64,000 bases of DNA from contig NZ_CP135921.1 of assembly GCF_032397745.1 (NCBI RefSeq), positions 8,730,501-8,794,500 of the forward strand, written 5' to 3'. Positions 32,224-61,137 of the stretch are shown here, piece by piece. How positions within the stretch are numbered: position 1 is the first letter of the stretch; each line of letters begins with the position of its first letter. The stretch comes from Bradyrhizobium prioriisuperbiae. Lineage in GTDB: Bacteria; Pseudomonadota; Alphaproteobacteria; Rhizobiales; Xanthobacteraceae. The translations under genes were made by a program, and so were the position numbers. The notes beneath the pieces are model-generated. The model ran no database searches. It saw only the letters and a list, made by a program, of their open reading frames with translations, and was not told the DNA's origin.

Positions 32224-33963
32224 TCACCCCGCATAACCCGGATTGCCGTCGACGCCCTTGATCTCGACATTGAGATTCTCGTTTGCCTTGCCCGCGCCGC
32301 CGCGCAGATAACTCGCCACCGTCTCCCATACCGGCTTGCCCTTCTGCTCGTTGACCGAGGCCCAGCCCGCGACCTTGTAGGATTTCGCGGCCTCGATCGG
32401 CGCGCCGCCGGCAAGCCTGAGATCGGAAATGCGCTGGCCCATCGGCTGCGCCGGGGCGCAGGCGTAGGACAGTCCGCCCATCCGCACCATGTCGCCGCCC
32501 TGCTGGTAATAGGGGTCGGCATTGAAAAGATTGTCGCAGACGTCTTCCATCACCGCCTTGATCTGCTCGCCGGTCATCGGCTGCACATAGACCTCCGGAT
32601 AGGTGATGGCGGTCTGGCTGAGCACATCCTGCATGGTGAGCGCAGCACCGGGGAGCACTGTCGGCCCCCAGCGGAAGCCGGGCGACAGTGCGATCTCGGT
32701 GTCGAGTTCACGTCGCAACGCATCGCAGATCAACTGGTCCATGGTGCCGTTGAAATTGCCGCGGCGAAACAACAGCCGGTCGGCCACCGCGACCTGTTCG
32801 TCGAACACCTTGGCATGGGGTGCGCGCAGACCCGCGATCAACGCCTGCATCTGGGGATCTGCCTTGAGCCGATCGCTGAACACCGGCAGCAGGCGATAGC
32901 GGATATCCTTCACACCGCCCTTGCCGATGTCGAGATCGAGCACGCCGAGGAATTTGCCATTGGAGCCGGCATTGCTGACCAGCGTCCTGCCGCCGGCATT
33001 GGTCACCGCGAGGGGCTGCGGCACCGCATCGTGGGTGTGGCCGCCCAGGATGACATCGATGCCACTGACGCGACTGGCAAGCTTGAGGTCCACATCCATG
33101 CCGTTGTGGGAGAGCAGCACCACCGCATCGACCTTTTCGACCGTGCGCAGGCGATCGACCAGCTTCTGCAGCTCATCGTCGCGCACGCCAAAAGTCCAGT
33201 TCGGCACGAAACGCCTGGGGTGCGCGATCGGCACGTAGGGAAACGCTTGGCCGACAATGGCGAGACGATAATCGCCCATCTGCCTGACGGTGTAAGGCTT
33301 GAAGACGCGCCCGGAGTCCTTGTCGAAGGCCTCGGCATCGTTGAAGGCGGCTTCCTCGGTGAGGAACACGTTCTGCGCCAGGAACTCGCCCTTGAAGTCG
33401 CGCAAATTCCGGCGCAGCACCTCTTCGCCGTAGGTGAACTCCCAGTGCCCGGTCATGGCATCGATCCCGAGCAGGTTGGCGGCCTGCACCATGTCGGCGC
33501 CCTGCATGGCGTTGGCGAGGCCACTGCCCTGCCAGAGATCGCCGCCGTCGAGCAGCACACTGCGGCCGGCCGACACCGCCGCGCGCAGGCCGTCGATCAG
33601 GGTCTTGAGATGGGCGAAGCCGCCCATGCGGCCGTAGCGCCTGGCGTCGCGATCGAAGTCGAGGAAGGTAAAGGCATGAGCCTGCGCGCTGTCGCGCACC
33701 ACGCCGAACTGCGTCAAGAAGGCCTCACCGACCAAATGCGGCGGTCGGCCGGCCATGGCGCCGAGACCGATGTTGATGCTGGGTTCGCGGAAATACACCG
33801 GCAACAACTGCGCATGAGTGTCGGTCATGTGCAGCACACGCGCATTGCCGAACGGCGCGAAATCGTAGAGCGCGTCGGTTTGTGCGACGCTGGGGCGTGG
33901 CAGGCCGGCGATGGCGGGTGCAGCCAGCGCGAACTTGAGGACATCACGTCGATGGAATGGCAT
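32224..33963 (-). CDS. soxB: Thiosulfohydrolase SoxB
   Basis: A 579-residue periplasmic dimanganese enzyme that hydrolyses the sulfate group off cysteine-S-thiosulfonate on SoxY. A Tat signal with R-R-D-V-L-K lies at 5-10. Metal ligands are visible in H-M-T-D-T-H (45-50), L-D-G-G-D (138-142) and L-G-G-H-T-H-D. G-H-W-E-F-T-Y-G (172-179) is the SoxB-specific motif that separates it from ordinary 5'-nucleotidases. The C-terminal nucleotidase-like domain is complete. REP elements flank the gene on both sides, so it may be transcribed separately from soxA-soxK. Confidence 0.96.
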   Translation of the reverse strand: MPFHRRDVLKFALAAPAIAGLPRPSVAQTDALYDFAPFGNARVLHMTDTHAQLLPVYFREPSINIGLGAMAGRPPHLVGEAFLTQFGVVRDSAQAHAFTFLDFDRDARRYGRMGGFAHLKTLIDGLRAAVSAGRSVLLDGGDLWQGSGLANAMQGADMVQAANLLGIDAMTGHWEFTYGEEVLRRNLRDFKGEFLAQNVFLTEEAAFNDAEAFDKDSGRVFKPYTVRQMGDYRLAIVGQAFPYVPIAHPRRFVPNWTFGVRDDELQKLVDRLRTVEKVDAVVLLSHNGMDVDLKLASRVSGIDVILGGHTHDAVPQPLAVTNAGGRTLVSNAGSNGKFLGVLDLDIGKGGVKDIRYRLLPVFSDRLKADPQMQALIAGLRAPHAKVFDEQVAVADRLLFRRGNFNGTMDQLICDALRRELDTEIALSPGFRWGPTVLPGAALTMQDVLSQTAITYPEVYVQPMTGEQIKAVMEDVCDNLFNADPYYQQGGDMVRMGGLSYACAPAQPMGQRISDLRLAGGAPIEAAKSYKVAGWASVNEQKGKPVWETVASYLRGGAGKANENLNVEIKGVDGNPGYAG

Positions 33964-33984
33964 TTCTTAAAGTCCTCGCGGTGG

Positions 33985-34060
33985 CCCGGCAATCCAGCTT
34001 TCTTCGATTTCAATAACCGCTGCAAAGCTGGATCACCGGGTCAAGCCCGGTGATGACGCA
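33985..34060. repeat. REP-like palindromic element (family B), left half shortened
   Basis: CCGGCAATCCAGCTT at the left, then AAGCTGGAT followed by the hairpin CACCGGG-TCAAG-CCCGGTG and ATGACGCA. Lies between soxK and soxB. The left hairpin is truncated compared with 35334-35420. Confidence 0.8.
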
Positions 34061-34118
34061 GAGAATGAGGAACGCGCATCGCGCATCAGGAATGGATCGT
34101 GTCGTTCACAAAACCAAA

Positions 34119-34445
34119 TCAACGCAACTCGGAATCCCGCCAGGCATCCTTCTCGCGCAGCGACTGGGCGACCGAGGCTTCGGCCAGCGCCTTGGCGTCC
34201 AACGCGAGCTTGATCGCCTTGTCGAACTCGCCGGCTTCGCCCGCCTTGCGCGCGGCGGCGAGTGCGGCAAAGGTCACCGTCCACTGGTTGCGCAATTCGC
34301 CGGCGCGTTTGTTGGTGGCCTCGGCTTCGGCGAGGGCAGCCTTGAAGGCAGCGTCCGGCGCTTGTGCATGAGCCGACATACCGGTGCTCAGCACGGTAGC
34401 TGCAACAGCGAGAACGATCAGGCGACGCATGGCAAACTGCCTCAT
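34119..34445 (-). CDS. soxK: SoxXA-binding protein SoxK (SAXB)
   Basis: A 108-residue periplasmic protein. The signal peptide spans about residues 1-28 (ending S-A-H-A-Q), and the mature part is a helical hairpin rich in Ala, Glu and Lys (R-N-Q-W-T-V-T-F-A-A-L, A-G-E-F-D-K-A-I-K-L-A). SoxK binds monoheme SoxA and SoxX to form a three-part SoxAXK complex and raises its activity. The ATG overlaps the soxA stop (ATGA at 34442-34445), as expected for subunits made in equal amounts; an internal ATG at 34430 is an alternative start. Confidence 0.85.
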   Translation of the reverse strand: MRQFAMRRLIVLAVAATVLSTGMSAHAQAPDAAFKAALAEAEATNKRAGELRNQWTVTFAALAAARKAGEAGEFDKAIKLALDAKALAEASVAQSLREKDAWRDSELR

Positions 34446-35308
34446 GGCCGCGCTCCCGGTCCCGAGATCGGCAAGCCGTTGCTGAGATACGACAGATAAT
34501 ATTCGAGATTGCGATACTCGGGATCCTGCGGCTCCAGCGGTGTGCCGCGGACCTGGCTGTTGCAGGTGGTGAAACGGCGGCTGGTGGTGCCCATGCCGCC
34601 CCACTCCGAGCGGTAGATCGGCATGGCATTGAGAATACCCAGCGCCGGCGCCAGCACCTCGGCGCGAATGCGCTCGCCCGGGCTCTGGATGTGGCAGCTG
34701 GCGCAGGAGAAATTCAGCTGGCCGCGGCGCTGATAGAAATACTGCTTGCCCGCTTCATAAGCCTGCAGCGCGCGCGGATCGTTCGGGATCTTGACGTCCA
34801 TCGGCTTGCCGCGCGAGGTCAGCGCCATGTAGGCGGTCACCGCCGCCATGTCGTCCCTGACATAGGAGTACGGTTTCTCGCCGTTCGCTTCCAGGCACTG
34901 GTTGACCGCAAGCTCGAGCGTGATCACCTGACCCTTGGCGGTGTCGAAATAGGGATAGTTCTGGCGAATGCCGACGCCCTTGTCGGGAAAGCAGTCCGCC
35001 AGCGTCTTGCCGTTCTTGAACAGCTGCGCCATCAGCTCCTTGCCGCGATCGACTGCGAAGTCGTAGGGCGGGAAGTCTTCCTTCTCGATCCATTGCTTGC
35101 GCATATCTTCGTTCATCGAATAGGGACCGTTGACGAAATCCTCCAGCGGCACCTTCGGGAATTTCTTGACGAAGTAGTCGCGGAACACCTTGAAGTCCTG
35201 CTCGGGCGTCGTGGCGTCGAGCGCCATGGAGGGACGTCCGGCGATGACGCTAATAGCTGCCGCCATCGCGGCGAGCCTCAATGCAAATCTCGCGGCTTTA
35301 TGCGCCAT
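34442..35308 (-). CDS. soxA: SoxA, monoheme type (SoxAXK complex)
   Basis: A 288-residue periplasmic c-type cytochrome that, with SoxX, joins thiosulfate to the SoxY cysteine. Only one heme site is present, C-A-S-C-H at 202-206. In place of the second site of diheme SoxA, two lone cysteines remain (106 and 138), probably a disulfide. Cys249 in T-T-C-N-S-Q-V-R is the heme ligand and active-site cysteine. The C-terminus (Y-R-N-L-E-Y-Y-L, G-P-G-A-R-P) is of the SoxK-associated type. I chose the ATG at 35308 with GAGGGG upstream; a GTG two codons earlier is possible. Confidence 0.95.
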   Translation of the reverse strand: MAHKAARFALRLAAMAAAISVIAGRPSMALDATTPEQDFKVFRDYFVKKFPKVPLEDFVNGPYSMNEDMRKQWIEKEDFPPYDFAVDRGKELMAQLFKNGKTLADCFPDKGVGIRQNYPYFDTAKGQVITLELAVNQCLEANGEKPYSYVRDDMAAVTAYMALTSRGKPMDVKIPNDPRALQAYEAGKQYFYQRRGQLNFSCASCHIQSPGERIRAEVLAPALGILNAMPIYRSEWGGMGTTSRRFTTCNSQVRGTPLEPQDPEYRNLEYYLSYLSNGLPISGPGARP

Positions 35309-35333
35309 TGTCACGTCCCCTCCCGAGTTTTTT

Positions 35334-35420
35334 CGTCATTGCCGGGCTTGACCCGGCAATCCAGCTTCTTGCCACGTGTTTGGCGAAAGCTGGATACGCG
35401 GGTCAAGCCCGCGTATGACG
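35334..35420. repeat. REP-like palindromic element (family B)
   Basis: CGTCATTGCCGGG-CTTGA-CCCGGCAATCCAGCTT, a short middle, then AAGCTGGATACGCGGG-TCAAG-CCCGCGTATGACG. It sits inside the sox operon, between soxZ and soxA. Confidence 0.9.
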
Positions 35421-35457
35421 CAGTATTTGCAGCAAGCGTCGACGATCAATCACGCCG

Positions 35458-35769
35458 TCAGCCGATCTTCGCGGTCAGCGTGTCGGTCGCGCCCTTGTTG
35501 TCGATCCAGGTGATCTTGAGATCGTCGCCCTTGGCGCCGCCCTTGAAGGAGAACTTCACGAACGGATCCTTGGAGACCGCCGGGCCCCACAGCGCGGTGA
35601 ACACCACCTTGCCGCCGACTTCAAAAGTCACCGTTTCGATGTGATGGGGCGGGATCAGCTCACCCTTGGCGTCCTTGACGAAGCCGGAGTCCATCGGATG
35701 CTGGATCAGCGCCTGGACTTCGGTGGTGTCGGTGCCGGCGGTGGCGCGAACGCGGATTGTCGATGCCAT
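35458..35769 (-). CDS. soxZ: Sulfur-oxidation carrier subunit SoxZ
   Basis: A 103-residue periplasmic protein with an immunoglobulin-like fold, no signal peptide of its own, exported by riding with Tat-targeted SoxY. H-P-M-D-S-G-F (about 24-30), I-E-T-V-T-F-E-V-G-G and the C-terminal D-D-L-K-I-T-W-I-D-N-K-G are typical. Together with SoxY it forms the carrier to which sulfur intermediates are bound. It begins 17 bp after soxY. Confidence 0.96.
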   Translation of the reverse strand: MASTIRVRATAGTDTTEVQALIQHPMDSGFVKDAKGELIPPHHIETVTFEVGGKVVFTALWGPAVSKDPFVKFSFKGGAKGDDLKITWIDNKGATDTLTAKIG

Positions 35770-35786
35770 GATGGATGTTCCTTATC

Positions 35787-36281
35787 TCAGCCGCCGCAGC
35801 CGCCGACGGTGACTTTGACTTCCTTGGAGGTGCTGTAGAGTGTGCCGCCGGATTCCACGACTGCAACCACGTTGCTGGTCTTGGCCATCTTCAGCCGGTT
35901 CGAGACCTGCGGCGTGGTGCCCTCGGGAATCCTGTAGGACGCCGCCAGTGCGTTGGGATTTTCCGCGACCATGATCGAGATCGAAGTCACGCCGGGCAGC
36001 GTGGTCGAGACGCTGATCGGCACCACCGCGCCATTCTCGGCGATTTCCGGGGCGTCGAGCTTGATCTTGTCGGAGGCCTCCGTCGGTTTGCCGCCATACA
36101 GCGTCTTCAGGGTGTCGGCTTCCGACTTCTGCTTGAACGCGTCGCCCGGCCAACCGGCGGCATCGGCCGCAAAGGCCGCGACCGCGCGCAGCGCATTCAG
36201 GCCCGCGCCCACCACGGCGGCAAGCGCGAAGCCGCGCAACACGCCGCGGCGCGATGCCTGGCTTTTCAACAATCGTTCCAT
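35787..36281 (-). CDS. soxY: Sulfur-oxidation carrier subunit SoxY
   Basis: A 164-residue periplasmic protein. A Tat signal (S-R-R-G-V-L-R-G, 10-17) precedes the domain, and the C-terminus is G-G-C-G-G, the flexible arm whose cysteine (162) carries the sulfur substrate through SoxXA, SoxB and SoxCD. This is the canonical form, unlike the second SoxY at 55909-56400. GGGAGGA precedes the ATG. Confidence 0.97.
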   Translation of the reverse strand: MERLLKSQASRRGVLRGFALAAVVGAGLNALRAVAAFAADAAGWPGDAFKQKSEADTLKTLYGGKPTEASDKIKLDAPEIAENGAVVPISVSTTLPGVTSISIMVAENPNALAASYRIPEGTTPQVSNRLKMAKTSNVVAVVESGGTLYSTSKEVKVTVGGCGG

Positions 36282-36303
36282 GGTCAGTCCTCCCGGATCG
36301 AAA

Positions 36304-36717
36304 TCAAAGGGTGTAGAGAAATTCGACCACCGCCGAAATCTCTTTCTCGTTCAAAATCAGGTTGCGCCCGAACGGCGGCATCACGGTCAACGGATTGCGT
36401 TTGGTCTCGTCGGTGACGATGCCGATCAGTTCGTTGCGGTCGGGAAAGCGGGCCTTCATGTCGTTGAGCGGCGGCCCGATGGTGCCGGGCAGATCGCCAC
36501 CCTTGATTTCATGGCAGGTCAGGCAATTGCCCTTGCCGCGGTCAAACGCGAGGGCGCGGCCCTCGGCGGCCGAGGTCTGCACCCAGGATGGCACCGACGA
36601 CGGCGGAGTCTGCGACTGGGCCTGCGCCGCACCGCTGCCGAGCAGACAAAACGCGAGAGCAATATGTCGGGCACCTATCATGCGCAAAGACCTTGCTGGT
36701 TCCTTCGAGATACTCAT
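36304..36717 (-). CDS. soxX: Monoheme cytochrome c SoxX (SoxAXK type)
   Basis: A 137-residue periplasmic cytochrome c with a signal peptide (about residues 14-34) and heme motif C-L-T-C-H (65-69). The methionine in V-M-P-P-F-G-R-N is the likely second heme ligand. It accepts electrons from SoxA during thiosulfate coupling. The ATG overlaps the soxD stop (ATGA), so I keep this start rather than the methionine 12 codons later. Confidence 0.93.
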   Translation of the reverse strand: MSISKEPARSLRMIGARHIALAFCLLGSGAAQAQSQTPPSSVPSWVQTSAAEGRALAFDRGKGNCLTCHEIKGGDLPGTIGPPLNDMKARFPDRNELIGIVTDETKRNPLTVMPPFGRNLILNEKEISAVVEFLYTL

Positions 36718-37388
36718 TTCGGCTGCATGTCGTCGAGCGGACCGGTGGTCCGCGGCGTGAGGTTCTTGCCTTCCGCTGTCGACACGATCTGGATGGCTTT
36801 CGGATCGAAACAGTTGCTCATGCAGGGCTTGTTGACGGTGTCGGGACGCGGATCGGTCCAGCTGAAGCTGTCGTGGTTGGGCATCTTCACCTTGGGCAGG
36901 CTATCCTTGTCGGCGACAAAATCATCGGGAACGATGTCGTTGAGGCTGAGGATATACGCGGTCAGCGCGTAGACGTCATCTGTCGGAAGTGTGTGCGGCG
37001 ACGGCATCGGCATGGCGCGGTTAATATAGTCCCACAGCGTGACGGCAAAGGGCCAATAACTGCCGACTGTGGGCTCCGGCCTGTCGCCGGTCAACGTTCC
37101 CTTGCCGCCGACGAGTTTGGGGAAACGCCCCTCGCCTTCGCCGAACGTGCCGTGGCAGGCCGCGCACTGCTCCGCGAACACATCCGTACCGCGCGCGACG
37201 TCGCCCTTGCCCAGAGGCAACCCCGCACCGTCATCGCCACGGGCGTCGATGTCCCAGCCGGCAATCTCCGCTGCTGTCGGCGCCCGGCCATAACCCAACG
37301 GCCCACGCTCGCCGGCCAGCGCCGCACTCATCGAGACGAGGACGCCGAGCGCACCGATCACACCGCGCCAATCAGCCGGTCTGAACAT
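36714..37388 (-). CDS. soxD: SoxD cytochrome c subunit of sulfane dehydrogenase
   Basis: A 224-residue periplasmic cytochrome c with a signal peptide (about residues 1-26) and heme motif C-A-A-C-H (75-79). It pairs with SoxC, taking the six electrons released when the sulfane sulfur on SoxY is oxidised. It carries one heme only, and the protein is much shorter than the diheme SoxD of Paracoccus. A C-terminal C-M-S-N-C pair lies near 190. Its start overlaps the end of soxC by 17 bp, which supports the ATG at 37388. Confidence 0.92.
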   Translation of the reverse strand: MFRPADWRGVIGALGVLVSMSAALAGERGPLGYGRAPTAAEIAGWDIDARGDDGAGLPLGKGDVARGTDVFAEQCAACHGTFGEGEGRFPKLVGGKGTLTGDRPEPTVGSYWPFAVTLWDYINRAMPMPSPHTLPTDDVYALTAYILSLNDIVPDDFVADKDSLPKVKMPNHDSFSWTDPRPDTVNKPCMSNCFDPKAIQIVSTAEGKNLTPRTTGPLDDMQPK

Positions 37389-38679
37389 CGAAAATGCTCC
37401 CGTCGGCCTTGACCTGCCAGGTCTGGATCGAATTGTTGTGGTAGACCGAATTGGTGCCGCGGATCTTTCGCAATTGCGAAATCGTCGGCTGCACGTAACC
37501 CGTCTCATCGATCACGCGCGATTCCAGCAGCGCCGGACCGCCGTCCCATCGCCACGGCAACGTGAAACGTGTCAGCGCCTTCGACAGCACCGGCTCCTTC
37601 AGCTCCGCCTTGCGCCAGTTGGCGCCGCCGTCGGTGGAGACATGCACCTCCTTGACCTTGCCGGCGCCGCTCCATGCCAGCCCGCGGATTTCGTACAGGC
37701 CCGGACCGCCCAGCGGCTTCTCCGGACAGGGGAACGCGATGACGGATTTCGCGTCGATCGCCCAGGTGAAACCGCGGGATTTTCCGTCCGGCATCAGGTC
37801 GGTGTATTTCGAGGTCTCCTCGCGGGTGTACCAGGGCTTGTCGCCGACCTTGATGCGGCGCAGCCACTTGATGCTGACATTGCCTTCCCAGCCCGGCACC
37901 ACCAGCCGCAGCGGATAACCCTGTTCCGGCCGCAGCGCCTCGCTGTTCTGCGCATAGACCACGAGGCAGTCGTCGAGGCATTTTTCCAGCGGCAGGCTGC
38001 GGGTCATGTGCGCGCCGTCGGCGCCCTCGACCAGCGCCCACTTGGCTTCCTTCTTCAATCCGACTTCGCCGAGCAGCGTCGAGAGTTTGACCCCGGTCCA
38101 TTCCGCGCAGCTGATCATGCCATGGGTGAACTGCAGCGAATTGAGCTGCGCGGCGCGCCACTCCATGCCGCCATTGGCCGGGCATTCGATGAAATGGATC
38201 CGCGAGGTCGATGGAAACCGCAGGATATCCTTCATGGTCAGGATCAGCGGCCGCTCGACCAGACCATGGATCATCAGCCGGTGCTGCGACGCCTCCACGT
38301 CCGGTCGTCCCGCGTGATAACGTTCGAAGAACAATCCGTTCGGCGTGATGATGCCGTGCAGGTCCTGCAGCGGCGAGAAGCTGATGGAGGATTCCGTGCC
38401 CGCCGTCAGCCACGGCACGTTGCGGCGGATGACACCGGCTTCCGCATCCGCCGGCTTGCCATAGGGGCGATCGACCACGCCGGCGCCGATCGACTGCGAC
38501 CAGGGATGATCCGCCGGCGGCGCGGCCCCCTCCGCGCTGGCGCCGCCGCGCACCAGCATGGACGCCGCCAGCGCGCCGGAGGCCCGCAGCAGCGACCGCC
38601 GTCCGACCACCCGTACGGCACCGGACGATTCTTCATCGCCCGCGGTCGCCGTCAGCCCGCGCCAAAATCTACTCCGCAC
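37372..38679 (-). CDS. soxC: SoxC sulfane dehydrogenase, molybdenum subunit
   Basis: A 435-residue periplasmic sulfite-oxidase-family protein. A Tat-like signal (V-G-R-R-S-L-L-R, about 25-32) precedes the molybdopterin domain, where Cys166 in F-I-E-C-P-A-N-G is the expected molybdenum ligand. The C-terminal dimerisation domain ends G-T-N-S-V-Y-H-N-N-S. As SoxCD it oxidises the sulfane sulfur left on SoxY to sulfate, so cluster I should oxidise thiosulfate completely without sulfur globules. It is the first gene of the leftward sox operon. Confidence 0.95.
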   Translation of the reverse strand: MRSRFWRGLTATAGDEESSGAVRVVGRRSLLRASGALAASMLVRGGASAEGAAPPADHPWSQSIGAGVVDRPYGKPADAEAGVIRRNVPWLTAGTESSISFSPLQDLHGIITPNGLFFERYHAGRPDVEASQHRLMIHGLVERPLILTMKDILRFPSTSRIHFIECPANGGMEWRAAQLNSLQFTHGMISCAEWTGVKLSTLLGEVGLKKEAKWALVEGADGAHMTRSLPLEKCLDDCLVVYAQNSEALRPEQGYPLRLVVPGWEGNVSIKWLRRIKVGDKPWYTREETSKYTDLMPDGKSRGFTWAIDAKSVIAFPCPEKPLGGPGLYEIRGLAWSGAGKVKEVHVSTDGGANWRKAELKEPVLSKALTRFTLPWRWDGGPALLESRVIDETGYVQPTISQLRKIRGTNSVYHNNSIQTWQVKADGSIFDVQTG

Positions 38680-53747: not shown

Positions 53748-54593
53748 TTACGCCTTGTGAAACACCAGCGTGCGCAGCTCGATGCTTTCGCGCGGCGGGA
53801 CGTTGGCCGGCGTGGTCGGGTCGATGAACGCGGTGTGCGGCCCGAAGCGGGTGCGACCGTCGGTGGCCGAATCGTAGCACTTCAGCAGCAGAGCTTCATC
53901 GACACGCATCTCCGGCACATAGAACCAGCGGTGCTCGGGATTGTATTTGACCGAATAGGTTTCACCGCTGCGGTTGGGATAGATCAGGTCGGAGGCGACG
54001 AGATCACCGGGCGCCACCGTGGTGCCGTCGCACATCGCCAGCGGCGCGTCGCGCAACGGCCCGCGGATCGGCCGCCACAAATTGATCACCTGGACGCGGC
54101 CTTTCAGCAGTTCCTCGGCATCGTCGGGCACGTGCTCGAAGACGCGGTTGCGGCCGGACACGGCGGTCTGGTCGACATGCACCCGAGTGGCGGGCTGGCG
54201 CGGCCCGGCGCCGCGCAGGTCGGTGGCTCCCTCGACGCGCTTGCGCACGGTGTGATCGAAGATGACGACGCGATCGGCGCCCAGGGTCTTCTTCAGGAAG
54301 GCCTCGATCTCAAGGTAATACACACGCCTGATCTCGTCCTCGTCACCAAAATCCTTCACGGCGGTTTGCTGCTGAACCAGCGCAAAGCCCTGGCGGTCGA
54401 GCGAAACCGTGTCGGCGATGGCGCGCACGTCGAAGATCGGCAGGGTATGCGGCTCCGGGAGCGCGGTGGATTTCGGCTTGCCCGGCGGCGGATCGAAGGC
54501 ATAGGTGCGCGGCTTGCCCGGCGTCGGCGCCAGATAATTCAGTTCCGCGGTGACGAACGGCAGGGATTTGATTGTTGTTTCTTGCAGTCCCAT
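53748..54593 (-). CDS. CmcJ/NvfI-like oxidoreductase (AsaB family)
   Basis: A 281-residue protein of the family that includes CmcJ of cephamycin synthesis and AsaB/NvfI-type hydroxylases, thought to be 2-oxoglutarate and iron dependent. I recognise D-R-V-V-I-F-D-H-T-V-R, the V-H-V-D-Q-T segment with a possible metal-binding H-x-D pair (about 138-140), I-N-L-W-R-P, and the late D-G-R-T-R-F-G-P-H-T-A-F. No signal peptide. The substrate is unknown. It follows soxA of cluster II by 213 bp in the same direction. Confidence 0.82.
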   Translation of the reverse strand: MGLQETTIKSLPFVTAELNYLAPTPGKPRTYAFDPPPGKPKSTALPEPHTLPIFDVRAIADTVSLDRQGFALVQQQTAVKDFGDEDEIRRVYYLEIEAFLKKTLGADRVVIFDHTVRKRVEGATDLRGAGPRQPATRVHVDQTAVSGRNRVFEHVPDDAEELLKGRVQVINLWRPIRGPLRDAPLAMCDGTTVAPGDLVASDLIYPNRSGETYSVKYNPEHRWFYVPEMRVDEALLLKCYDSATDGRTRFGPHTAFIDPTTPANVPPRESIELRTLVFHKA

Positions 54594-54806: not shown

Positions 54807-55595
54807 TCACGGCCGCACGGCTGGTGTCTCCATCGGCATGCCGCGGGCGCGCGACATCAAATAGAGCTCAAGCTCCACGAGTTCGGGGGCGCCGTAGTCA
54901 TAGGCCTGGGCGCGCACGCCGGTGATGCAGCTGCGCAGCCGGCGCTGCAGCGACCCCAGCGACTGCCACTCCAGGCGGTACAGCGGATAACCGGTCGGAT
55001 GCGCCTGGGTGATGGCGGAGCCGGCAAGATGCTTGTCCCAATTATCGTCATGGCAATTGGTACAGGCGAGATTGAGCTGGCCCTGGCGGCGCATGAACCG
55101 TTCGCGGCCGGCAGCGATGAATGGCACCAGACGCGGATCGCTGCCGCCGTCGATCGCAATGCCGCGTGACTGCGTCCCGATCAGTGCGGTCAGCGCCAGC
55201 AGTTCGCGGCTTTCAGAGGCGAACGGCGTCGCCTGCTGATGCCGGGTGCGGCAGAGATTGACGCGCTCCGCGAGATCGACCGGGCGCGCGAGCACAGGAT
55301 CGAACGCGGGATAGCGCGCCGCGACACCGCGCATGCTGGCCTTGGCGTCGCCATGGCAGTCCGCGCATGCGCGCCCGGCATCGCCCGCTTTGGCCGTCCA
55401 CAGCGCCTCGCCATCCAGCACCCACAGCATTCCGGGATTAGCGGTGTCGTCATTCTGGATTGCCTGGGTGGCCGGCGACATGAAGCTGAAGCCGGAGCGG
55501 CGCTCGGCCGGTGAAATCTCGGCGGTAAAACCATGCGTGGCTGCGAGCAGCATGACGCCCAGCATCACGGCCGCGATCGCGCCAACGGCCTTCAT
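54807..55595 (-). CDS. soxA: SoxA, diheme type (cluster II)
   Basis: A 262-residue periplasmic cytochrome with a signal peptide (about residues 1-25). Two heme motifs are present, C-A-D-C-H (77-81) and C-T-N-C-H (178-182), and the ligand/active-site Cys223 lies in R-S-C-I-T-G-V-R. The C-terminus (L-E-L-Y-L, R-G-M-P, P-A-V-R-P) is that of classical diheme SoxA from Paracoccus and Rhodovulum. It differs in type from the monoheme SoxA of cluster I, so it was not made by recent duplication. The ATG overlaps the soxZ stop. Confidence 0.95.
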   Translation of the reverse strand: MKAVGAIAAVMLGVMLLAATHGFTAEISPAERRSGFSFMSPATQAIQNDDTANPGMLWVLDGEALWTAKAGDAGRACADCHGDAKASMRGVAARYPAFDPVLARPVDLAERVNLCRTRHQQATPFASESRELLALTALIGTQSRGIAIDGGSDPRLVPFIAAGRERFMRRQGQLNLACTNCHDDNWDKHLAGSAITQAHPTGYPLYRLEWQSLGSLQRRLRSCITGVRAQAYDYGAPELVELELYLMSRARGMPMETPAVRP

Positions 55596-55909
55596 TCGAC
55601 GGCGATGGTCGCGGATGCGGTTTCCAGAAAACCCTTGTCGCCGACCCATTGGAATTCGAAGGTGCCGCTGTCGGTGGCGGTGGTGAAGAACGAGATGAAG
55701 GGATTGGCGGAGATGGCGGGGAAGAAGTCAGCGCGAAACACCTCGACGCCGTTATAGCGGCAGACGAAGTTGGTGATGATATCGCGCGGGACGGCCTCGC
55801 CGCTCGGGGTGTGGCGAAAGCCGGTCTCCATGATGTGCGACATCAGAGCCTTGATCTCGACGACATCGCCGCGTTGCGCCTTGGCGGGAACATTGATCAG
55901 CGCCGGCAT
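55592..55909 (-). CDS. soxZ: SoxZ (cluster II)
   Basis: A 105-residue carrier subunit without a signal peptide. H-I-M-E-T-G-F-R (about 26-33), the D-I-I-T-N-F-V-C-R-Y-N-G-V-E-V-F region and G-T-F-E-F-Q-W-V-G-D-K-G match SoxZ. An extra cysteine in F-V-C-R-Y is absent from the cluster I protein. Its start overlaps the soxY stop (TGATG) and its stop overlaps the soxA start, so soxY-Z-A are tightly coupled. Confidence 0.93.
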   Translation of the reverse strand: MPALINVPAKAQRGDVVEIKALMSHIMETGFRHTPSGEAVPRDIITNFVCRYNGVEVFRADFFPAISANPFISFFTTATDSGTFEFQWVGDKGFLETASATIAVE

Positions 55910-56400
55910 CAGCTGGCCTCCTCGACGCACGCTGCCAGTGTCACCACCACGTCGGCGGTGGTCGACCAGAACGAGCCGTCGGACAGCTTCGCGATCGCGG
56001 TGATCCGCTGGGTGTCGGCGAGCCGGATCCGGGTGGAGACCTGGGCACGGCCGGCACGAACACCGAGATAGAAATTGCCGACATTGGGCTGCGGGTTCTT
56101 CTCGTTGAAGACATGAATGCTGACGACATGGTCATCCGCGGTCATCGGGCTCGCCACCGACACCGTCAGCGGCACGGTGTTGCCATTCTCGACCAGCGGC
56201 GGCACGTCCAGCTTCACTTTGCCCGGCCGCACGGTGGCAGTCCCGACCACGTCGCGGATCGCAGCGTTCTGCATCTGCGGCGTCGCCACTGCCGGTCGCA
56301 GGCTGACCATGGCGCCCGCGCCGAGCACGGCGCCGCCCGAGAGAGCCAGGAATCGCCGGCGTGTCGCGGATGTCGTTGAAGGTGTCGTCGGATCCGTCAT
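55909..56400 (-). CDS. soxY: SoxY variant lacking the GGCGG arm (cluster II)
   Basis: A 163-residue SoxY-family protein with a Tat signal (T-R-R-R-F-L-A-L, about 13-20) and the normal immunoglobulin-like domain (V-P-L-V-E-N-G-N-T-V-P-L-T-V-S, S-I-H-V-F-N-E-K-N-P). Canonical SoxY ends in G-G-C-G-G, but this one ends L-A-A-C-V-E-E-A-S. The cysteine (158) is kept, but the glycines that make the arm flexible are replaced and an acidic tail is added. The flavocytochrome and the diheme SoxAX in the same operon may act on this carrier. SoxB and SoxCD, which need the arm to reach in, may not use it (inference). Confidence 0.92.
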   Translation of the reverse strand: MTDPTTPSTTSATRRRFLALSGGAVLGAGAMVSLRPAVATPQMQNAAIRDVVGTATVRPGKVKLDVPPLVENGNTVPLTVSVASPMTADDHVVSIHVFNEKNPQPNVGNFYLGVRAGRAQVSTRIRLADTQRITAIAKLSDGSFWSTTADVVVTLAACVEEAS

Positions 56401-56415
56401 CGGCGTATCGAACTC

Positions 56416-56838
56416 CTATTCGCGCAGTGTCGCAAGATAGGCCACCACATCCTCAATCTGCTGTGCCGACAGAATCGGCTTGTCTGTCCAGGCGGTGCCG
56501 ACGCGCGCCAATCCGTCCAGGCGGTAATAGGATGGCATGATCGTCGCGGGATTGAGGTGGGAGGCATCCACCAGCCGCAACCGTAGCTGCCCCTTCGACC
56601 AGCGGCTGCCGGTTCCCGCGAGATCCGGCGCAAGATCGCCCTGGAACGCCTTGTCCGCAAATGGCCCGGGGTGGCAGAGCACACACGTGTTCAGGCGATT
56701 GGCAACAATACTCCGGCCCTGTGCAGGATCACCGGGCTGGCCTGTGAACGACGTCGGGATCGCATCATCAACCACGAGATAACTTAGCAAGTCGGCCGCA
56801 TGCGCGCCGCCGGACAGCAGCATCGCTATTAGAGCCAT
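56416..56838 (-). CDS. soxX: SoxX, classical type (cluster II)
   Basis: A 140-residue periplasmic monoheme cytochrome c with a signal peptide (residues 1-15). The heme motif is C-V-L-C-H (52-56). L-R-L-V-D-A, T-I-M-P-S-Y-Y with the heme-ligand Met, G-K/T-D-K-P-I-L-S and V-V-A-Y-L-A-T-L are typical of SoxX that pairs with diheme SoxA. It is more similar to those proteins than to SoxX of cluster I. The ATG at 56838 is 10 bp after the flavoprotein stop. Confidence 0.93.
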   Translation of the reverse strand: MALIAMLLSGGAHAADLLSYLVVDDAIPTSFTGQPGDPAQGRSIVANRLNTCVLCHPGPFADKAFQGDLAPDLAGTGSRWSKGQLRLRLVDASHLNPATIMPSYYRLDGLARVGTAWTDKPILSAQQIEDVVAYLATLRE

Positions 56839-56848
56839 GTGGCACGGT

Positions 56849-58120
56849 CTAACCAAAAACTTCCGCCGTGATGGTGTCGAACCAGGATTGGGCATAGACC
56901 GCCTCGCGGGCGCGGAATTCGCGCGGCGCATCCACCGGGCTGGTGCCGCCGGCGCCCTCGACATCGGCAAGCAGGCCATTCTTCGGCTGATAGACGCCGG
57001 CGACCGAGAAGCCATAGTCCGGCGCGGCGAGGCTGTAGCAGGTGTTGATCAGTTTCGGTGCCGCCGGCGCGCCGCCCGCAAGCAGCGTCGCGACCGCGGC
57101 CGCGCAGGCCTTGGCCTGGGCATTGGCCGAGAAGGCGGATTTCGGCATGCCGCCGGCGATGCAGGCGTCGCCGATCACATGGACGTTCGGAGCCGTCTTG
57201 GATTCGAAGGTCACCGGATCTATGGCACACCAGCCGCTTGCGTCCGCCGCACCCGCAAGCGCGGCGATGCGGCCGGCTTTCTGCGGCGGAATCACGTTGG
57301 CCACCTGTGCCGTGTGTTTGCCGAATTCGGTGACGAAGGTTTTGGTCGAAGGGTCGACCGACGTCACCTTGCCGCCTTGCGACAGCGACACCCATTCGAT
57401 CATGCCAGGATACAGTTCAGTCCAGGCGTTCTGAAACAGCCGCTGCTTGGAAAAAGCGTCCTTGGCATCCAGCACGATCAGCTTGGAGCGCGGCTTCTTG
57501 GCTTTCAGATAATACGCAATCAGGCAGGCCCGCTCATAGGGCCCGGGCGGACAGCGATAGGGATTGGCGGGCACCGACATCACCACCAGGCCGCCGTCGT
57601 CCATGGCTTCGAGCTGCCGGCGCAGCAACAGCGTCTGCTCGCCGGCCTTCCAGGCGTGCGGCATCACCTCCACCGCGGCTTCGTCATAGCCCGGCAACGC
57701 ATCGAAGCGCAGGTCGATGCCCGGCGACAGCACCAGCCGGTCGTAGCGCAGCGAAGATCCATCGGCCAGCGTGACCGTTCGCCCCTGCACATCGACGCCG
57801 GTCGCCGCCTGCGCCGCAACTGTGATGCCGGCGGCAGCGATCTTGTCGTAGCCAAACCGCTGGGCTTCGATGGCGCGGAAACCACCAATGACGTCGTTGC
57901 TGAAGGGGCAGGCCGTGAAGGTCTTGTTCGGCTCGAGCAGCGTCACCTGCAGTTTCGGGGCGAGCCATTTGAGCGCCCGTGCACAGCTTGCCCCACCGAA
58001 GCCGCCGCCGATCACAACCACGTTGGCGCTGGCCTGCGCGAATGACGGCCGCGCCAGTGCCAGCGAGGCGGCAGCCCCGCCCACAAACGCACGCCGGGTG
58101 GTGCGATATCTCCTGCTCAT
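56849..58120 (-). CDS. fccB: Flavocytochrome c sulfide dehydrogenase flavoprotein (SoxF/FccB)
   Basis: A 423-residue periplasmic flavoprotein with a Tat signal (T-R-R-A-F-V-G-G, 8-15). The FAD motif is V-I-G-G-G-F-G-G (37-44). Cys71 in F-T-A-C-P-F-S-N matches the cysteine that binds FAD covalently in FccB, and C-P-P-G-P-Y-E-R-A-C together with I-N-T-C-Y supplies the redox pair that takes sulfide. It oxidises sulfide to sulfane sulfur and passes electrons to the small cytochrome encoded just upstream. The sulfur product may be loaded on the SoxYZ pair of the same operon (inference). Confidence 0.94.
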   Translation of the reverse strand: MSRRYRTTRRAFVGGAAASLALARPSFAQASANVVVIGGGFGGASCARALKWLAPKLQVTLLEPNKTFTACPFSNDVIGGFRAIEAQRFGYDKIAAAGITVAAQAATGVDVQGRTVTLADGSSLRYDRLVLSPGIDLRFDALPGYDEAAVEVMPHAWKAGEQTLLLRRQLEAMDDGGLVVMSVPANPYRCPPGPYERACLIAYYLKAKKPRSKLIVLDAKDAFSKQRLFQNAWTELYPGMIEWVSLSQGGKVTSVDPSTKTFVTEFGKHTAQVANVIPPQKAGRIAALAGAADASGWCAIDPVTFESKTAPNVHVIGDACIAGGMPKSAFSANAQAKACAAAVATLLAGGAPAAPKLINTCYSLAAPDYGFSVAGVYQPKNGLLADVEGAGGTSPVDAPREFRAREAVYAQSWFDTITAEVFG

Positions 58121-58129
58121 CGCCGCCCC

Positions 58130-58417
58130 CTATTTCTGCCCAGCGAGCCACGCCGCGATCGGGCGCAGCTCGTCGTCGGAATAGCCCTTGGCGATCCGCC
58201 CCATCACGGTGGCGGGCCGCGAGCCGTCGCGGAACGCCGCGATCAAAGTGAGGATCTCGCCGGCATCGCGGCCGGTGATCCGCGGCACCGCGGCTGCCGA
58301 CGCGCCATGGCAGCCCGAGCACGACGCCGCGCCCGTCGGTGGCAGCGACGCGGCGCAGGCCGGCGCAGCCGATGCGCCGACTGCCGCGATCAGAAGCACC
58401 ATCGACAAAAATTTCAT
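58130..58417 (-). CDS. Monoheme cytochrome c subunit (SoxE/FccA-like)
   Basis: A 95-residue periplasmic cytochrome c with a signal peptide (about residues 1-23, ending A-C-A-A) and heme motif C-S-G-C-H (33-37). V-M-G-R-I-A-K-G-Y-S-D-D-E-L gives the Met ligand and the last helix. It is a monoheme partner for the flavoprotein encoded 9 bp downstream; the Allochromatium partner is diheme. An in-frame ATG ten codons upstream is possible, but the one at 58417 begins the signal peptide. Confidence 0.9.
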   Translation of the reverse strand: MKFLSMVLLIAAVGASAAPACAASLPPTGAASCSGCHGASAAAVPRITGRDAGEILTLIAAFRDGSRPATVMGRIAKGYSDDELRPIAAWLAGQK

Positions 58418-58484
58418 GCAGAACGTCCGATCCGATGCGGCAGCCATGATGGCTGCCGCATGTCAGTCACGTCGCCCCATCCCA

Positions 58485-60677
58485 TTACGCGAACAGGATG
58501 TCATGGTTCTTCAACGGCACCGAGCGGATGCGTTTGCCGGTGGCGGCGAAGAATGCGTTGAGCACCGCAGGCGCCGCAACGCAGATGGTCGGCTCACCGA
58601 CGCCGCCCCAGAAGCCGCCGCTCGGCATCAAGATCGCCTCCACCTTCGGCATCTCGGCGATCCGCATCGAGTTGTAGGTGTCGAAGTTCTCCTGCTCGAC
58701 ACGGCCGTCCTTGATGGTGATCTCGCCGTAGAGCAGCGCCGAAAGACCGTAGACGAAAGAGCCCGCGACCTGGCGTTCGATCTGCGCCGGGTTCACGGCG
58801 TAACCGGGATCGGTGGCCGCGACGATGCGGTGCACCTTGATCTTGTTGCCGTCAGTCACAGAGATTTCAGTGGCGGCGGCAACGTAACTACCGAAGCCCA
58901 TATGCTGGCAGAGACCGCGGAACACGCCCTGCGGCGGCGGAGTATCCCAGCCGATCTTTTCCGCAACCGCGTTGAGCACGGCGAGGTGCTTGGGATGATT
59001 GGCCATCAGCTTGCGCCGGAACGCGAGCGGATCCTGTCCGGCCGATTTGGCGAGCTCATCCATGAAGCATTCGAGGTAAATGGCGTTGTGATTGACATTG
59101 ACGCCACGCCAGAAGCCCGGCGGCACATGCGGATTGCGCATGGAGTGATCGATCAGGAGATTCGGCACGCTGTAGCCGAACGCCGCTTCGCCGGTCGGAT
59201 TGAGGCCCTGGAACGTGACCGTATCCTTGCCGTTCTGCAGGTTGTTGGGAAACACACTGGCGATGATCGACTGACCGGAGATGCGCATATGCAGGCCGGT
59301 CAGGTTGTTGTCGGCATCGAACGCGCCGGTGAGCTTGCACTGGGTGATTGGGTGGTACTTGCCGTGCAGCATGTCTTCTTCGCGCGACCACAACAGCTTG
59401 ACCGGCGTGCCCGGCATCTGCTTGGCGATCGCCACCGCCTGGCGGACATAGTCGGTCATGCCGCGCCGGCCGAAGCCACCGCCGAGCATCACCTTGTGCA
59501 CCTCGCACTTCTCCGCCGGCAGGCCGGAGGCTTCCGTGGTCGCAGCGAAGGCCGCTTCGCCGTTCTGGGTGCCGGTCCAGACCTCGCACTTGTCAGGCGT
59601 GTAGAGCACCGTGGCGTTGAGCGGCTCCATCGCCGCATGGTTCTGGTAGGGATAGGAATACACCGCCTCGACCTTGCGGGCAGCACCCGCGATCGCGGCC
59701 TTGACGTCGCCGTTCTGATTGCCCACGAACGCCGGCTGCGCCGGGTCGAGGCCTTCCTCCAGCCATTTGGCGATCGAGGCGCTGGTCACCCTGGCGTTGT
59801 CGCCCTCGTCCCAGACGATCGGCAGGGCATCGAGCGCGGTCTTGGCGTGCCACCAGGTGTCGGCCACCACCGCCACCGCGGTGTCGCCAACCCGGACGAC
59901 TTTCTTGATGCCCTTCATGCCGGCAATCTTGGCCTCGTCGTAGCTCTTCAGCTTGCCGCCGAACACCGGGCAATCCTTGATCGCAGCATTGAGCAAACCC
60001 GGCAGCTTGATATCGGCGCCATAGATCATCTTGCCGGTGGTCTTGTCCTCGGTGTCGAGCCGCTTCAGCGGCTTGCCGGCAATGGTCCAGTCCTTGGGAT
60101 CCTTGAGCTTGACGTCGGCCGGCGGCGTCAGCTTGGCAGCGGCTTCCGCCACCTTGCCGTAGGTGGTGGTCCGATTCGACGGCGTGTGAGTGATGATGCT
60201 GTTGGCCGCGGTGCATTCGGTAACAGGGACTTTCCAGCTCTCGGCGGCGGCCTGGATCAGCATCATGCGTGCGGCGGCGCCGCCCTTGCGCACATAATCC
60301 TGCGAGGTGCGGATGCCGCGGCTGCCGCCGGTGGAGAAATCGCCCCACACCCGCTTGCGTGCCACGCTCTCGCCGGGGGTGGGATATTCGGTGGTGACTT
60401 TCGACCAGTCGCACTGCAACTCCTCGGCGACAAGCTGCGCCAGCCCGGTGAGGGTGCCCTGCCCCATCTCGGAGCGGGCGACGCGGATCACGACCGTATC
60501 GTCGGGCCGGATCACGACCCAGGCGTTGACCTCGGGCGAACCGTCCGCGGCGCGAACCACGGTCGGACCACCGAAGGGAATGTCGAGCCCAAGGGCGAGA
60601 CCGCCACCGGCGACGGTGGCGCCGACCACGAAAGCCCGGCGGCTGAGCGAACGAGTTGCTGTCATCATCTTGTTCAT
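58485..60677 (-). CDS. Xanthine dehydrogenase family molybdopterin subunit, IorB-like
   Basis: A 730-residue periplasmic molybdenum hydroxylase subunit with a Tat signal (S-R-R-A-F-V-V-G, about 12-19). G-G-G-F-G-R-R-G (near 407), F-W-R-G-V-N and the active-site glutamate in G-V-G-E-P near the C-terminus bind the molybdenum centre and substrate. The form with a duplicated IorB-type domain is typical of isoquinoline or aldehyde oxidoreductases that work in the periplasm. It pairs with the [2Fe-2S] subunit encoded upstream. It is the second gene of a probable operon with cytochrome c, FccB and sox genes, so the small cytochrome could also be its electron acceptor (inference). Confidence 0.92.
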   Translation of the reverse strand: MNKMMTATRSLSRRAFVVGATVAGGGLALGLDIPFGGPTVVRAADGSPEVNAWVVIRPDDTVVIRVARSEMGQGTLTGLAQLVAEELQCDWSKVTTEYPTPGESVARKRVWGDFSTGGSRGIRTSQDYVRKGGAAARMMLIQAAAESWKVPVTECTAANSIITHTPSNRTTTYGKVAEAAAKLTPPADVKLKDPKDWTIAGKPLKRLDTEDKTTGKMIYGADIKLPGLLNAAIKDCPVFGGKLKSYDEAKIAGMKGIKKVVRVGDTAVAVVADTWWHAKTALDALPIVWDEGDNARVTSASIAKWLEEGLDPAQPAFVGNQNGDVKAAIAGAARKVEAVYSYPYQNHAAMEPLNATVLYTPDKCEVWTGTQNGEAAFAATTEASGLPAEKCEVHKVMLGGGFGRRGMTDYVRQAVAIAKQMPGTPVKLLWSREEDMLHGKYHPITQCKLTGAFDADNNLTGLHMRISGQSIIASVFPNNLQNGKDTVTFQGLNPTGEAAFGYSVPNLLIDHSMRNPHVPPGFWRGVNVNHNAIYLECFMDELAKSAGQDPLAFRRKLMANHPKHLAVLNAVAEKIGWDTPPPQGVFRGLCQHMGFGSYVAAATEISVTDGNKIKVHRIVAATDPGYAVNPAQIERQVAGSFVYGLSALLYGEITIKDGRVEQENFDTYNSMRIAEMPKVEAILMPSGGFWGGVGEPTICVAAPAVLNAFFAATGKRIRSVPLKNHDILFA

Positions 60678-60687
60678 GACGGCCCCC

Positions 60688-61137
60688 TTACGCGTTCGCC
60701 GCGGCGTGGATCGCTTCGCGCACCTGCGCGAAGGTGCCGCACCGGCAGATGTTGGTAATGGCCTCGTCGATGTCCTTGTCGGTGGGCTTCGGCTTCTCCT
60801 TCAGGAGCGCCGCCACCGCCATGATCATGCCGCTCTGGCAATAGCCGCATTGTGGAACATCGTTGGCCACCCAGGCCTGCTGCACCTTGTGCAGGGGACC
60901 GCCCGCGGCCAGCCCCTCAATGGTGATGATCTGTTTGCCGACCACGTCAGACACCTGCATGCTGCAGGATCGGGTGGCTTCGCCGTCGATATGGACGGTG
61001 CAGGCGCCGCATTGTGCAATGCCGCAGCCGTATTTGGTCCCGGTCAGGCCGACCAGCTCCCGGATGGCCCAGAGCAGCGGCATATCCGGCTCTGCGTCGA
61101 TATCGTAGGTTTTCCCGTTGATCGTGAGGACTGGCAT
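60688..61137 (-). CDS. [2Fe-2S] subunit of molybdenum hydroxylase, IorA-like
   Basis: A 149-residue protein with two [2Fe-2S] clusters. The plant-type site is C-G-I-A-Q-C-G-A-C with a later C in T-R-S-C; the second site is C-G-Y-C-Q-S-G and C-R-C-G-T. No signal peptide is present, so it would be exported folded with the Tat-targeted large subunit. It begins the leftward operon; its stop lies 10 bp before the large-subunit start. The 213 bp upstream contain no gene and should hold the promoter of the operon. Confidence 0.93.
   Translation of the reverse strand: MPVLTINGKTYDIDAEPDMPLLWAIRELVGLTGTKYGCGIAQCGACTVHIDGEATRSCSMQVSDVVGKQIITIEGLAAGGPLHKVQQAWVANDVPQCGYCQSGMIMAVAALLKEKPKPTDKDIDEAITNICRCGTFAQVREAIHAAANA

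Follow-up and report, generated by a model that had tools for sequence, protein, structure and literature searches.

The stretch of DNA analysed here, the window, is 64,000 nucleotides of Bradyrhizobium prioriisuperbiae (contig NZ_CP135921.1, positions 8,730,501 to 8,794,500; the source genome is one contig of 9.08 Mb), and at 54807-61137 it carries eight minus-strand genes arranged head to tail, in which SoxXA and SoxYZ share an operon with a molybdenum hydroxylase of two subunits. From the first gene of the operon to the last these are:

60688..61137, minus strand: 2Fe-2S subunit of the molybdenum hydroxylase, the first gene of the operon (Pfam Fer2, Fer2_2), 10 bases before the next gene
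58485..60677, minus strand: large subunit of the molybdenum hydroxylase (MoCoL), xanthine dehydrogenase family, aldehyde-dehydrogenase/IorB type (Pfam MoCoBD_1, MoCoBD_2; twin-arginine leader by inspection)
58130..58447, minus strand: small c-type cytochrome with one CxxCH (Pfam Cytochrome_CBB3, 27.4 bits, cut-off 27)
56849..58120, minus strand: flavoprotein of the flavocytochrome c sulfide dehydrogenase (FCSD)/SoxF type (Pfam FCSD_central, FCSD-flav_bind; twin-arginine leader by inspection)
56416..56838, minus strand: SoxX, cytochrome c with one CxxCH (TIGR04485, 72.7 bits, cut-off 61, scored on a longer open reading frame; start set at the ATG at 56838)
55909..56400, minus strand: SoxY with an AACVEEAS arm (TIGR04487, 221.4 bits, cut-off 172; twin-arginine leader by inspection)
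55592..55909, minus strand: SoxZ (TIGR04490, 86.7 bits, cut-off 76, scored on a GTG-started open reading frame; the start is the ATG of MPALINV)
54807..55595, minus strand: SoxA with two CxxCH and a cysteine-containing RRLRSC loop (TIGR04484, 214.6 bits, cut-off 110, scored on a longer open reading frame; the start is the ATG of MKAVG)

The gaps along the operon are 10, 37, 9, 10 and 15 bases, the fourth lying between FCSD and SoxX, and the remaining gene ends overlap, the ATG of SoxZ having one base in common with the stop of SoxY (TGATG). With TIGR04484, TIGR04485 and TIGR04490 all over cut-off the SoxXA and SoxYZ set is complete, and neither SoxB nor SoxCD was found within the operon at 54807-61137. 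A sequence-only reading of the window had described a second sox operon here, with SoxXA and a flavocytochrome sulfide dehydrogenase and without SoxB or SoxCD; the profile matches agree with it, and a canonical set with a GGCGG SoxY, SoxB and SoxCD does indeed lie 16 kb away. That description omitted the two 5'-most genes (58485-61137), which are the molybdenum hydroxylase and its 2Fe-2S subunit.

The C-terminal sequence of the window SoxY is ...VVVTLAACVEEAS, in which the carrier cysteine is retained, the GG preceding it has become AA and the GG following it VEEAS; the loss of the glycine arm and the gain of an acidic tail had already been seen from the sequence alone, and the GGCGG arm of canonical SoxY is absent. 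The protein belongs to the SoxY superfamily (PF13501, 109.6 bits, cut-off 28.4, residues 49-158), falls short of TIGR04488, the GGCGG SoxY (107.1 bits, cut-off 125), and matches, with the score listed above, the NCBIfam family TIGR04487 "SoxY-related AACIE arm protein". The arm variant is therefore not new, as the family already carries a curated name, although the database entry as displayed is that name and gives no function, no molybdenum partner and no absence of SoxB. Among the matches listed (at least 120 SoxY relatives) those that carry an organism name are Bradyrhizobium and Tardiphaga.

When 385 alphaproteobacterial genomes were searched with TIGR04487, 70 gave a match at E 1e-25 or better and 21 gave one over cut-off. 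Arms were read in all 82 matches of this class survey, 36 being xAC (alanine directly before the cysteine) and 46 GGC. In a tree of these 82 with two own paralogues added, 34 of the 36 xAC SoxYs form one split with support 99/95, and the same 34 still form one split when the arm columns are removed (86/52, with a bootstrap that had not settled). None of the 34 has GGC, and the variant arm is conserved in this clade; relatives keeping GGCGG, which would have told against the earlier description, were not seen. The acidic tail is common yet not universal among xAC arms (AACVIG, GACIVG and GACAYM occur), so the constant feature is the change of glycine to alanine before the cysteine. The remaining two xAC SoxYs (genomes G191 and G313, loci L286 and L287) end in GACS and fall outside the AAC clade, a separate arm change, and in the sequence covered their flanks showed neither the molybdenum gene nor SoxB.

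The contents of 42 xAC loci, that is the 34 clade loci and eight from a phylum survey which are absent from the tree, were mapped by tblastn of their neighbourhoods and set against the 46 GGC loci, several of which lie on short contigs (the shortest 6958 bases), so that absence there is limited to the sequence present. MoCoL is found in 38/42 xAC loci and in none of the 46 GGC loci, and its 2Fe-2S subunit in 36/42 against 0/46, whereas SoxB is in 0/42 against 34/46 and SoxC in 0/42 against 19/46. The Fisher values, including the one for SoxB counted by genome, are very small but ignore shared ancestry, and as the loci are kin they overstate the association. Four xAC loci are without MoCoL, and in two of them (G093, G071) a contig break separates the locus from an orthologue on another contig; the other two are in G091 and G127. 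Arm type and partner enzyme change together. The same picture holds for named genomes, where the order 2Fe2S-MoCoL-(cytc)-FCSD-SoxX-Y-Z-A is found in the best 80 of 475 related loci, nearly all of them Bradyrhizobium; MoCoL is in 75 of the 80, and the five without it all start less than 50 bases from a contig end. Furthermore the pair of xAC SoxY and MoCoL is also present in a betaproteobacterium, Polynucleobacter, in four genomes of 1.7-2.1 Mb. The existence of a unit joining Sox proteins to a molybdenum enzyme is thus well supported.

A rearranged lineage (L174 and L177, from G078 and G365) has the molybdenum genes, SoxY and SoxZ, followed by the cytochrome, FCSD, SoxX and SoxA. Its molybdenum partner belongs to another subclade, with the pairing to Sox kept, and a tree in which 44 enzymes are held as one group, apart from 14 stand-alone enzymes at greater distance, can be rejected (p-AU 9.3e-05), the group having been named after the tree was seen; the 44 comprise the Sox-linked enzymes, cases at contig edges and close homologues that lie away from Sox genes. 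The SoxY of L174 and L177 has a longer tail after GACVE, and an intervening open reading frame in L174 is SUMF1-type by eye. Clustering of the flanking open reading frames of 26 loci showed no clear further conserved partner, the non-core clusters being by eye antisense frames over core genes, save for an ABC transporter ATPase (8 loci) and a LysR-type gene (5 loci), and nothing that names a substrate was found in the flanks of three Polynucleobacter loci.

Judging by the alignment, SoxA has changed along with the arm. Its active-site cysteine is retained in 71/71 aligned sequences, and the residue three positions after it is Gly in 36 of 41 sequences from xAC loci (Ala in 3, Ser in 2) and in none of 30 from GGC loci, where it is Gln (14), Asn (12), Asp (3) or Leu (1). 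At the position just before the cysteine, Gly is found in 2/41 against 22/30. One xAC locus, L173, was left out as its stretch ends within the gene, and SoxA was found in 30 of the 46 GGC loci. The small cytochromes c found at xAC loci all keep their CxxCH (19/19).

The sequence-only reading had offered two roles for the carrier, sulfide-derived sulfur or another thiol, and for the first of these the idea that FCSD and sulfide define the system is not supported. Were the carrier one for sulfide-derived sulfur, FCSD would oxidise sulfide, SoxXA or FCSD itself would load the AAC arm, and the molybdenum enzyme would be incidental. FCSD does sit between MoCoL and SoxX in the window, it is found in 22 of the 42 xAC loci, and it is in all 80 of the named-genome loci. 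It was however not found in the other 20 xAC loci, including 4/4 of those from Polynucleobacter (in one of the 20, G093, the contig breaks and FCSD lies on a different one), as against only four in which MoCoL was not found, and it also occurs in 16/46 GGC loci. It is the molybdenum hydroxylase, rather than FCSD, that is constant as a partner, and for this reason an organic-thiol or aldehyde-linked role is more likely than a sulfide carrier, which on its own terms we consider unlikely. The motifs CPPGPYER and NxC[YFW]S, which we take to be the cysteine motifs of FCSD, each occur in 21 of the 22 FCSDs found; the window protein shares both motifs and the Pfam domains with FCSD/SoxEF, and is best seen as an optional member of the AAC unit.

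A second claim of the sequence-only reading, that the carrier does not serve the full Sox cycle, fares better, given the absence of SoxB and SoxC from every xAC locus and the 26 of 34 class-survey xAC genomes without SoxB over cut-off. SoxB is over cut-off in the other 8/34, as against 28/34 GGC-only genomes (a set drawn from 43 genomes, 31 with SoxB, by leaving out seven with a clade xAC SoxY and two with a GACS SoxY), and SoxC is over cut-off in 4 of the 27 xAC genomes tested. Absence of SoxB from the whole genome was also tried as a general rule and rejected; a first count gave SoxB over cut-off in 5/27 and a second sample in 15/18, and absence is common across families without being a rule.

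Bradyrhizobium diazoefficiens has both a soxY1 and a soxY2, and according to Masuda and co-workers soxY1 of locus I alone is essential for thiosulfate oxidation (PMC5748708). Two B. diazoefficiens genomes each gave three SoxY-type matches, with a GGCGG arm, an AACTEE arm and a fused SoxYZ, and we infer that soxY2 is the AAC gene. In comparison with canonical Sox (SoxXA, SoxYZ, SoxB and SoxCD) the AAC unit is alike in SoxX, Y, Z and A, in the carrier cysteine and in the SoxA cysteine and haem motifs, and differs in having neither SoxB nor SoxCD, in an AAC arm with a mostly acidic tail and in the altered SoxA loop. It is also like truncated Sox systems in working without SoxCD; those of Allochromatium and Hyphomicrobium however keep a GGC-type arm, Allochromatium keeps SoxB, and we know of no molybdenum hydroxylase partner for any of them.

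The molybdenum enzyme of the window has the MoCoBD domains and the 2Fe-2S subunit of the xanthine dehydrogenase family, whose members normally hydroxylate aldehydes or N-heteroaromatics by transferring hydroxide to carbon. The closest solved chain to MoCoL is the large subunit of an aldehyde dehydrogenase (8gy3_C, E 1.6e-76). All 38 large subunits found contain GxGEP, in which the glutamate is presumably the active-site residue of the family, and all 36 of the 2Fe-2S subunits found have at least eight cysteines (counted on stop-to-stop frames). With a large and a 2Fe-2S subunit, a twin-arginine leader and a cytochrome c as the likely acceptor, the pair resembles the two-subunit molybdenum aldehyde and isoquinoline dehydrogenases (8gy3, and what we take to be the IorAB type), from which it differs in sitting in one operon with SoxXYZA. 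By virtue of its leader MoCoL should act alongside the Sox proteins in the periplasm. Right after GEP its residues are unlike those of 14 stand-alone homologues at greater distance, a difference that suggests another substrate. In an alignment 44 columns split 41 enzymes of the main group (in the covered sequence some of these have no Sox neighbours) from these 14, though only three of the 44, Arg514 included, are common to the separately placed lineage of three sequences, a post hoc comparison that deserves little weight. Beyond the loci so far described, L313:2044-10378 (G315) has three tandem pairs of 2Fe-2S protein and molybdenum hydroxylase, one 2Fe-2S match being partial; the SoxYZ of that genome is a fused one with a GGC arm.

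Since SoxCD is also a molybdenum enzyme, the unit might simply have put one molybdenum enzyme in the place of another, in which case MoCoL would be an inorganic sulfane dehydrogenase and sulfate would still be made from sulfane sulfur. The absence of SoxC from all 42 xAC loci, and its scarcity in the 27 genomes tested for it, would fit such an exchange. On the other hand GxGEP is invariant in the large subunits, the nearest relative is an aldehyde dehydrogenase and the family moves hydroxide to carbon, and the clustering of 26 flanks revealed no conserved stand-in for the SoxB hydrolase, all of which leaves this explanation very improbable.

We favour the view that the operon encodes a dedicated periplasmic Sox unit in which the two-subunit molybdenum hydroxylase is joined by SoxXA and an AAC-armed SoxYZ, and to which a small cytochrome c and FCSD often belong, and we would put its probability at roughly one half, the substrate and the chemistry being our own inference. 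In this unit the molybdenum hydroxylase probably replaces SoxB and SoxCD and acts on an organic thiol; the substrate is likely to be an organic thiol or a thiol-aldehyde adduct and not thiosulfate, so that of the two roles first offered "another thiol" is the one that we prefer. SoxXA would couple the thiol to the cysteine of SoxY through a disulfide bond, in the way that it handles thiosulfate, and two electrons would pass to the cytochrome c. The molybdenum hydroxylase, standing in for SoxB and SoxCD, would then oxidise the carbon part of the substrate, either on the arm or just after its release, with electrons leaving through its 2Fe-2S clusters to cytochrome c, and the sulfur left on the carrier, or freed as sulfide, may be oxidised by FCSD where it is present and by other enzymes where it is not. 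This would amount to a second, organic branch of Sox chemistry, in which a molybdenum hydroxylase oxidises the carbon of a carrier-bound thiol and neither SoxB nor SoxCD is needed to part carbon from sulfur and oxidise both in the periplasm, a suggestion that we put forward tentatively and hold to be some way less probable than the unit itself.

Several observations weigh against a dedicated unit of this kind. Two of the 34 clade members (G091 and G127) carry the molybdenum enzyme elsewhere, on a different contig. The complete genome G066 has the 2Fe-2S protein, MoCoL, SoxX and SoxA in a row (L167:8849-12913), yet a search at E 0.001 gave no match to SoxY in it, so the carrier can be dispensable, and some close homologues of the molybdenum enzyme are also found without Sox neighbours (L168, L170 and L175); taken together these suggest that the molybdenum enzyme and SoxXA may share a task to which the carrier is an addition. 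The second sample, with SoxB in 15 of its 18 genomes, is dominated by relatives of the window genome and Polynucleobacter (one of the 18, G544, has a GGC SoxY in its locus), and it shows that a full Sox system is often present in the same genome as the unit. Finally, we know of no xanthine-dehydrogenase-family enzyme that acts on a protein-bound disulfide.

Some of these observations could be read the other way round, with Sox serving the molybdenum enzyme; a persulfide on SoxYZ would restore the sulfido ligand of the molybdenum in the periplasm and SoxXA would take the electrons of the enzyme. The molybdenum gene being a more constant partner than FCSD would be expected from this, as would the retention of SoxXA with the molybdenum enzyme in G066. 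Yet the more distant homologues do without Sox genes altogether in the flanks covered (11/11 loci, L307-L317), there is to our knowledge no precedent for SoxYZ restoring such a ligand, and we regard the idea as very unlikely. It is also conceivable that co-regulation is all that links two separate tasks, one that of an aldehyde oxidase and the other that of a module for thiol or sulfide oxidation, which draw on the same food source and have no common intermediate, a possibility suggested by the molybdenum homologues that exist alone and by the separation of the two parts in G091 and G127. It would seem unlikely, though, that parts with nothing in common should have changed the SoxY arm and the SoxA loop together with the partner, or that one lineage should have paired with the molybdenum gene of another subclade, and it is a dedicated unit that we continue to prefer.

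No paper on the pairing of an xAC SoxY with a molybdenum hydroxylase was found in the open-licence literature, and a description elsewhere is possible. The portion of a SAR324 paper available to us reports an isoquinoline 1-oxidoreductase and, separately, FCSD flanked by SoxYZ, and in that portion no link between molybdenum and Sox is drawn (PMC4782131). At least one SoxY study, as far as its available text goes, dropped sequences without the GGC motif before analysis (PMC11237559). The pairing suggests that bacteria of soil and fresh water have a sulfur pathway yet to be characterised, its hosts being common soil rhizobia and Polynucleobacter with its small freshwater genomes, and the link to one specific molybdenum enzyme turns a bare family name into a testable pathway. 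Genome surveys that equate soxXYZA with thiosulfate oxidation may err at xAC loci, and if the carrier does hold an organic thiol then Sox gains a role in the turnover of organosulfur compounds.

Directly downstream of SoxA, on the same strand, the window has a CmcJ/NvfI-family oxidoreductase (53748-54593) which is probably outside the unit, as it was not found beside the other mapped xAC loci. The canonical cluster of the window is as follows:

32224..38679, minus strand: SoxB, SoxA, SoxZ, SoxY (GGCGG), SoxX, SoxD and SoxC (SoxB and SoxC by profile, the others by position and sequence reading)

SoxB of this cluster scores 826.6 bits (TIGR04486, cut-off 550) and SoxC 647.1 bits (TIGR04555, cut-off 420), and its SoxA (34442-35314) has one CxxCH where that of the AAC operon has two. 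There are four SoxY-type matches in the source genome, namely those with AACVEEAS and GGCGG, one ending in NGCN and a fused SoxYZ-like protein. The NGCN protein belongs to a third SoxYZ (L005:7467-9561, equivalent to G000:C1:6792466-6794560) in which SoxY ends in ATNGCN, an arm that is neither GGC nor AAC, and an FCSD-like flavoprotein is its immediate neighbour, with groEL also adjacent.

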